DNA of 39,796 nt from Clostridia bacterium (lineage in GTDB: Bacteria; Bacillota; Clostridia; Oscillospirales; CAG-272): NCBI GenBank assembly GCA_017467105.1, contig JAFTSU010000026.1, positions 1-39,796 of the forward strand, given 5' to 3'. The notes under the pieces are model-generated. The model did not search any database and was not told the origin of the DNA. It saw nothing but the letters and a program-made list of their open reading frames with translations. How positions within the stretch are numbered: position 1 is the stretch's first letter; each line of letters begins with the position of its first letter. The position numbers were made by a program, and so were the translations under genes. Shown piece by piece: positions 38,929 to 39,675 of this stretch.

Positions 38929-39330
38929 ATGTATACTAGTGCAAAGCCCTATTTCTACGGCACAGGCAGAAGAAAGAAGTCCGTAGCAAGAGTTCGTCTC
39001 TATCCCGGTACCGGCGCTGTTACTGTTAACGGCAGAGACGTTTCCGACTACTTTGGTCTGGAAACCTTAAAGTATATTGTTAATCAGCCCTTCGGTGTTA
39101 CTGATACCGTTGGCAAGTTCGACGTTGTAGCTAACGTTCAGGGCGGTGGCTTCTCCGGCCAGGCTGGCGCAATCCGTCACGGTGTTGCCCGCGCTCTTCT
39201 TTCCGCAGACGAAAACTACAAGCCCCTTCTCAAGAAAGCTGGATTCCTTACTCGTGATCCTCGTATGAAGGAGAGAAAGAAGTACGGTCTCAAGGGCGCT
39301 CGTCGTGCACCTCAGTTCTCCAAGAGATAA
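38929..39330 (+). CDS. rpsI: 30S ribosomal protein S9
   Basis: The 133 residues match S9: [24 protein letters not shown] near the start, [20 protein letters not shown], and the conserved C-terminal [11 protein letters not shown]-like tail (here [12 protein letters not shown]), whose final Lys-Arg reaches the P-site tRNA. GGGAGGAAA lies before the start. Confidence 0.98.
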
Positions 39331-39350
39331 TTTCGACCTTGTCGAATACA

Positions 39351-39381
39351 AAAAATGCTCCGTTTTTTCGGAGCATTTTTT
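39351..39381 (+). terminator. intrinsic terminator of rplM-rpsI
   Basis: AAAAATGCTCCG (39351-39362) pairs perfectly with CGGAGCATTTTT (39369-39380) around six T, followed by more T. A smaller TTCGAC/GTCGAA hairpin (39332-39346) precedes it. Confidence 0.92.
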
Positions 39382-39407
39382 ATTATCTCTTTGATAAGCT
39401 TGGGTGC

Positions 39408-39592
39408 AATGAAATCTGCCTTTGGCAGAACAAATCCACCATAGGTGGATGAAATCGCTTCGCGACGAAATCCGAATCGGTCGGGTTATAGTGGCAGATT
39501 TCATTTATCCCGAGGCTTGTCCTCGGATTTCATCTGAACGTAGTGAAGATTTCATCCGTCTTTGCGGATTTCATCACCGTAGGTGATTTCAT
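39408..39592. repeat. array of small hairpins joined by GAA/TTC
   Basis: Seven or eight short hairpins lie head to tail: 39415-39429, 39434-39450, 39455-39465, a poor one near 39472-39480, 39510-39526, 39532-39550 (two mismatches), 39554-39569 and 39573-39587. They are joined by the trinucleotide GAA in the first half and TTC in the second, so the octamer ATGAAATC or its complement GATTTCAT recurs seven times (two and five), with variants between. A perfect 13-bp inverted repeat (39408-39420 and 39493-39505) encloses the first half. No gene lies in it. Confidence 0.85.
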
Positions 39593-39608
39593 TCTCTCTG
39601 CCGTCCTA

Positions 39609-39637
39609 TTTACTTTTTGCCGTTTTTATGGTATAAT
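39609..39637 (+). promoter_or_regulatory. promoter of the last gene
   Basis: TTTACT (39609-39614) and TATAAT (39632-39637) are 17 bases apart, with TG one base before the -10. Confidence 0.7.
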
Positions 39638-39675
39638 ACAACTAATCGATAAACTTGAATTTGTAGGTGCGTGCA

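Follow-up and report, generated by a model that had tools for sequence, protein, structure and literature searches.

Apparent spread of hairpin arrays to gene ends in gut Clostridia, viewed from a compound element behind rpsI

What is an array of short palindromes, joined by one recurrent word and reversed halfway along, doing behind a ribosomal protein gene? The question is raised by a contig of 39,796 nucleotides from Clostridia bacterium (GenBank assembly GCA_017467105.1, contig JAFTSU010000026.1; Oscillospirales, CAG-272), the whole of which we call the window. It ends with rplM-rpsI, a terminator and then a non-coding compound hairpin element of 186 bp (39408..39593, + strand). Our answer is that the array is probably a member of a class of mobile DNA that is non-autonomous and non-coding, is drawn to terminators and resembles bacterial interspersed mosaic elements (BIMEs) and miniature inverted-repeat transposable elements (MITEs); that the class is dispersed mobile DNA can be held with considerable confidence. 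The mobility of the class is well supported; what the window copy itself demonstrates is exchange at a single site. The family appears to have spread to sites at gene ends in gut Clostridia.

The element begins with AATGAAAT and finishes with ATTTCATT. It is composed of two opposed blocks: the joints of block A read (A)TGAAAT and lie inside an outer stem with perfect 13-bp arms, AATGAAATCTGCC (39408-39420) and GGCAGATTTCATT (39493-39505), and those of block B read ATTTCA(T). The octamer ATGAAATC is present on the + strand at 39409 and 39449 and on the - strand at 39497, 39526, 39548, 39567 and 39585, so that the blocks are uneven, with two exact octamers in the first and five in the second. 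These seven are among only eight copies in the whole window, and dinucleotide-shuffled windows hold 2.56 on average and 7 at most. Each strand has a better fold than any of 200 shuffles (z -3.55 on + and -4.68 on -). Direct reading and repeat finding thus confirm what a sequence-only reading had described, namely an opposed-block array of seven octamers with about eight hairpins (eight were counted by eye) and a perfect 13-bp closing stem. Two of the joints are degenerate, ACAAATC at 39430 and CGAAATC at 39466.

Is this organization restricted to one locus? The array had been suspected to belong to a repeat family, and relatives do exist: the pattern TGAAAT-(8-30)-TGAAAT-(8-30)-TGAAAT was found in 103 of 147 genomes (the window's own genome and its relatives), which represent 45 of 64 genera, and as many as 50 times in a single genome, and the reversed control pattern was found in 10 of the 147, with up to eight matches each. 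Among the matches listed, most of the named carriers of a strict pattern are assemblies of "Clostridia bacterium" and Oscillospiraceae, many of them from the ruminant gut. Eighteen related arrays from different sites in five genomes have flanks that cannot be aligned to the left of the first hairpin; dispersed arrays are mostly 70-83% identical over the longer matches, with up to 15 matches per genome. The general unit has two blocks of ~3-4 short hairpins each, an outer stem closing the first block and one 7-nt joint word per family, which is ATGAAAT in the window and ATGAATT, GTGAAGT, GTTATGA and others elsewhere.

The next question is how the element behaves at its own site in related species. 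The 3' side of rpsI was read over ~400 bp in 41 members of the genus, and elements were present in 15 of them (five with ATGAAATC, including the window genome, two with other TGAAAT arrays, three with ATGAATT, four with GTTATGA and one with GTGAAGT). No joint word was seen over that length in 20 (G012 retains a short relic, and some others carry other hairpin-rich sequence), and six sequences were too short to tell. On the rpsI tree, the family labels change 18 times, against a mean of 20.0 in shuffles (as low in 11 of 200), and well-supported sister pairs differ in the state of the site (G029 vs G041, G020 vs G019). The elements of G038, G047 and G048 are 97.8-98.4% identical, compared with 82.2-85.7% for their rpsI genes. 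A 99% partial copy in G018 lies at a contig end; it has the downstream flank of rpsI, which places it at the same site. Together with the dispersed relatives, the site differences and the excess of element over gene identity make a non-autonomous mobile repeat the best supported of the four explanations that the sequence-only reading had offered.

Where do such elements settle? From 107 candidates, fetched as loci matching a TGAAAT-type pattern, 73 unique elements remained after filtering for outer stem, joints, overlap and near-identity, and 71 of these were analyzed for landing sites, two without full flanks being dropped. A perfect stem of at least 7 bp closes no more than 14 nt upstream in 61 of the 71 elements, in contrast to 35 of 515 random positions, and an upstream T-run is present in 36 of the 71 and in 34 of the 515. 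Elements behind terminators tend toward one orientation. At CCA-GAAAAA...TTTTTC sites in eight genomes, an element-like start comes next in 12 of 17 cases, as judged by eye.

A second frame, which starts with GCGTG and has imperfect terminal inverted repeats, carries the arrays as cargo. Its repeat has 72 exact-pattern matches in six genomes, with none for the reversed pattern, and its copies span 314-522 bp. Of 14 distinct sites, 11 have flanks with at least 10 contiguous bases complementary to each other, a run that is seen in 3 of 182 mismatched flank pairs; the remaining sites, L481, L518 and L505, have 8, 7 and 3 complementary bases in a row, respectively, and TTTTT is present in the right flank at 9 of the 14. 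Judging from this complementarity, the frame sits in the loop of a predicted intrinsic terminator at 11 of 14 sites. Ten of the 14 lie 16-49 bp past the stop of an open reading frame (ORF) of at least 165 aa, and in six the opposite flank has a convergent ORF of more than 100 aa within 17-32 bp. For the trxB site of G028, 29 other loci were compared over 190 bp, and the frame was found in none of them; many have a plain terminator and one (L536) has a different hairpin array. The cargo of 48 frame copies comprised 32 TGAAAT, five TGAATT, two TTATGA, two TGAAGT and one TGATAT array and six unclassified copies; by eye, the latter include three with TCGATAT, one with a degenerate GTTATGA and two without an array. 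At least five joint words are thus represented among the arrays in the frame. No consistent direct repeat that could represent a target duplication was seen by eye at the 14 sites. In L477 near 750 (G048), the first hairpin of the frame has the opposite internal orientation.

Another important issue is whether the stems are maintained as stems. At the four outer positions of 336 hairpins, Watson-Crick pairs fill 77-96% of the cells, depending on the slot, and means of 36-52% were obtained when the 3' arms were re-dealt within the slot. The 4-nt left arms include 15-20 distinct sequences in five of six slots, and loops of 3-4 nt are found in 175 of the 202 hairpins with at least four outer pairs. 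The window was aligned with 31 of 38 sequences, those within the limits on length and word. In this 32-sequence alignment, pairing amounts to 89.5% and falls to 30-41% when partners are slid, and 168 cells are changed on both sides, compared with 48.2 in shuffles; further standard pair types are no higher than in shuffles (469 of 500 as high). Both the arm swap and the alignment therefore support the earlier idea that the stems differ in sequence and keep their pairing. In hairpins bounded by exact joints on both sides, G-T accounts for 6 of 1309 pairs (22 hairpins with fewer than three outer pairs were skipped and 109 T-C cells set apart), in contrast to 20 of 487 in the acceptor stems of 70 of the 76 tRNAs from the same loci (Fisher p 1.4e-7). 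Over the whole alignment, G-T takes up 39 of 1396 standard cells, of which a single U-G pair, conserved in 27 of the 32 sequences, supplies 27, and the scarcity of G-T is therefore only suggestive as an argument for palindromes at the DNA level.

Half of the window-type unit is already on record as a small RNA of unknown role, Gut-1 (Rfam RF01706), described in passages of the literature as a noncoding RNA seen in environmental sequences alone. Its Rfam consensus has three hairpins joined by GUGAAAU and is equivalent to one block of the unit; here, the same block is half of a head-to-head unit, occurs in many copies per genome and has other joint words in sister families. In the alignment, the window shows the three hairpins with UGAAAU joints, two of which are degenerate. 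With 34.5 and 27.7 bits, its blocks stay under the gathering cut-off of 50 bits (the sub-threshold match in block B is at 39522-39594 on the - strand), and nothing in an Rfam scan of the window reached its gathering cut-off, nor did any of the 20 Gut-1 matches in its own genome. Over the cut-off, Gut-1 was detected in 92 of 147 genomes and in 0 of 14 controls, one of which has matches below it; the per-genome counts, with 29 candidates scored, are lower bounds. No account of these arrays was found in titles and abstracts of the open-access literature on hairpin arrays, terminators and MITEs, and no open-access paper was found under the names Gut-1 RNA or Gut-1 motif; one paper was retrieved for Gut-1 in connection with Rfam. 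Our comparisons use passages of PMC2864571, PMC8040213, PMC12045711, PMC10969869, PMC3733652 and PMC8266576.

These data raise the question of what process stands behind the arrays. A structured RNA (Gut-1) selected by the host as RNA, for example a 3'-untranslated-region or read-through regulator, would explain the strong covariation in the 32-sequence alignment, the kept U-G pair and the preference for a single orientation behind terminators, as expected of read-through RNA. It would also fit the recurrent TC/TC mismatch (GA/GA on the other strand), seen in 58 of 141 hairpins in slots 1-2 of block B and in 3 of 125 in block A. However, the copies are dispersed and patchy between sister species, and G-T pairs are rare between exact joints relative to tRNA acceptor stems, a contrast that is weaker across the alignment; we regard this explanation as unlikely. 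If functionless hairpins were corrected as quasi-palindromes by template switching during replication and spread by recombination only, this would account for the predominance of two-sided over one-sided changes, for the frame hairpin flipped end for end in L477 and for the inverted gene-end copies beside elements. Such a process seems possible but rather improbable, since each element keeps to its joint word, the TC/TC mismatch has persisted uncorrected, and unrelated flanks at many sites require a means of movement.

Word-tagged hairpins, head-to-head blocks and mosaic organization are also features of repetitive extragenic palindromic (REP)/BIME-type repeats moved by a REP-associated tyrosine transposase (RAYT, of the Y1 type), and in L427:2600-3900 (G056) a 176-aa RAYT-like gene does lie between hairpin arrays (ATGATAT, GTGATGA) and GTAG-type REPs, the latter being its own by eye. 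Nevertheless, an array detector applied to 20 fetched Y1/RAYT-like loci gave 16 matches in L427, one each in L422 and L439 and none in the others, so that arrays flank the gene on both sides at one locus of 20. Y1 transposases were found in 54 of 147 genomes, which include neither the window's own genome (57% complete) nor the element-rich G028 and G048 (96% and 95% complete), and were rejected as a tracker of the elements because their presence does not follow the distribution of the latter. Movement by RAYT is thus highly unlikely. We think the same of remnants or ends of integrative elements with a tyrosine recombinase that use the 3' ends of rpsI and tRNA genes: the arrays behind rpsI and behind tRNA-type CCA-GAAAAA...TTTTTC terminators and the extra rpsI 3'-end copies in G011, G020 and G022 are consistent with them, but most frame sites lie behind long ORFs, counted irrespective of function, and frame copies are too small for an integrase gene.

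For mobile DNA of the kind preferred here, movement would occur as DNA by means of an enzyme acting in trans, which may recognize hairpins together with the joint word when the DNA is single-stranded or cruciform; the preferred landing place would be hairpin DNA at terminators. The near-perfect stems might reflect a need for both arms in recognition by the enzyme or a joint rewriting of the arms by hairpin copying. This enzyme-and-hairpin part of the explanation is tentative. Speculative, too, is the full picture of a new type of mobile DNA that would home to intrinsic terminators, with exchangeable hairpin-array cassettes, each in its own 7-nt word, whose two hairpin arms would be renewed together by hairpin copying, and of which Gut-1 would be a piece. 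If it is true, an unexplained Rfam "RNA" becomes mobile DNA, terminator hairpins act as a landing site for transposition, and many repeats, perhaps also assembly breaks, in gut Clostridia genomes are accounted for. It also becomes testable whether selection maintains such near-perfect, ever-changing palindromes or a copying mechanism writes them.

Several observations weigh against mobility and homing to terminators. Near-identical copies of the window element were found in the rpsI flank alone, so that for this copy an exchange of the region by ordinary recombination is possible. On the rpsI tree, the ATGAAATC label by itself forms clusters, with 3 changes where shuffles average 4.9 (6 of 500 are as low), and two of the five rows that bear it are identical. 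No exact empty allele was found among the trxB loci compared. The window copy has its AATGAAAT/ATTTCATT ends only, without the GCGTG repeats. In a wider set of 18 frame copies, terminator arms were present in 9 of the 15 with enough downstream sequence and absent from six. Among the 72 exact-pattern matches in six genomes, no convergent repeat pair 0.6-3 kb apart was found that would indicate an autonomous frame with a transposase, a search that diverged ends would escape; two pairs on the same strand are separated by 2.1 and 2.6 kb. The searches of Y1 transposases, frames and window genes revealed no mobilizing enzyme, and the predicted lack of a transposase in the window is borne out by a Pfam search of its 34 likely genes, three of which have no Pfam family. 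Finally, carriers among the matches listed are mostly metagenome-assembled, with many copies at contig ends.

To which known system, then, is the element closest? It is BIME- and MITE-like and shares a block with Gut-1, yet it has the defining features of none of them in full. Short intergenic palindromes, a conserved-word tag, opposed orientation and mosaics are common to it and to REP/BIME/REPIN sequences as characterized in passages of PMC3733652 and PMC8266576. In contrast to these, the tag is TGAAAT-like instead of GTAG/CGTC, stems vary from unit to unit and are not constant within a family, a unit has ~6-8 hairpins, and the genomes do not consistently have a Y1 protein; the earlier exclusion of REP/BIME is thus right as to membership, whereas the mosaic organization is BIME-like. 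MITEs, including pneumococcal BOX, RUP and SPRITE, are likewise short, non-coding and multi-copy, as are the related arrays at unrelated sites, and the GCGTG frame adds terminal inverted repeats. Passages of a MITE review mention terminator-like SPRITE elements but neither settling in terminator loops nor exchangeable hairpin-array cargo (PMC10969869). TIGR (tandem interspaced guide RNA) arrays, one of them from a gut microbiome, also consist of tandem stem-loops with variable palindromes, but according to passages of PMC12045711 their units carry dual spacers, bounded by box C/D motifs, and lie next to a Tas gene that has a Nop domain. The loops here are mostly of 3-4 nt and no Nop domain was found in the 34 ORFs of the window, which led us to reject this candidate. 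CRISPR (clustered regularly interspaced short palindromic repeats) was correctly dismissed from the beginning, as the sequences between joints are themselves palindromes and there is no constant repeat with non-palindromic unique spacers. Simple tandem repeats were considered and set aside. Group IIC introns insert just behind terminators, and the elements share this position; group II introns were rejected, with no Rfam match at cut-off in the window and elements of only 186-522 bp.

The surroundings and inner structure of the window element, all on the + strand, are as follows. rpsI (ribosomal protein S9, 38929..39330; Pfam PF00380, E 3.3e-50) has the element at its 3' side. The gene end (39308..39331) forms the left arm of an imperfect inverted repeat that encloses the terminator (39316-39331 with 39382-39397, 88%). 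The terminator itself (39350..39381) has A- and T-runs and a perfect 13-bp stem, 100% complementary by repeat finding, and is followed by a diverged inverted copy of the rpsI 3' end (39382..39406, from repeat finding), which adjoins the element and is, by eye, better kept in G047, G048, G038 and G075. An inverted copy of this kind often stands behind the terminator where an element is present (window 39308-39406, L083, L325), and L337, L356, L326 and L340 have, downstream of rpsI, extra direct copies of its 3' end, each with its own terminator, that resemble short attachment-site cassettes. Units alignable with the whole element (39408..39593) occur in G001, G038, G047 and G048. Its outer stem (5' arm 39408..39420), found as a repeat, pairs in 100% of cells in the 32 sequences, and the inner part of the 5' arm can alternatively form a local hairpin at 39415-39429. 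Sequence and RNA folding place the block A hairpins (39434..39486) at 39434-39450, 39455-39465 and ~39470-39486, with ATGAAAT/CGAAAT joints; the 3' arm (39493..39505, helix 1 of the covariation test) precedes the flip. Block B (39507..39593), read from the sequence, has hairpins at 39507-39527, 39532-39550 (with a tandem GA/GA mismatch), 39554-39569 and 39573-39587, with ATTTCAT joints. The right flank (39600..39645) extends to a TATAAT promoter-like sequence of the next gene and is recognizable by eye 3' of rpsI in several sister species.

Further observations concern other collections and other arrays. In a scan of named genomes (at least 116 stretches), all ten inspected matches with non-Clostridia titles were, by eye, coding or simple tandem repeats and were rejected. 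At least 120 stretches were obtained from viral contigs, and of the four inspected, L208 and L235 are simple repeats and two from IMG/VR hold genuine elements (L209:4960-5200 and L274:13040-13290), that of L274 lying behind a tRNA-like CCA end and terminator by eye. The L081 element had no match in phage and plasmid collections. In L184:4505-5130, an element is present in three tandem copies with a spacing of 233 bp. Another repeated sequence, TTATCCAAGYCGCAGRCTT, lies behind CCAGAAAAA...TTTTTC terminators in two genera (G000:C22:96868 and G075:C12:38677).
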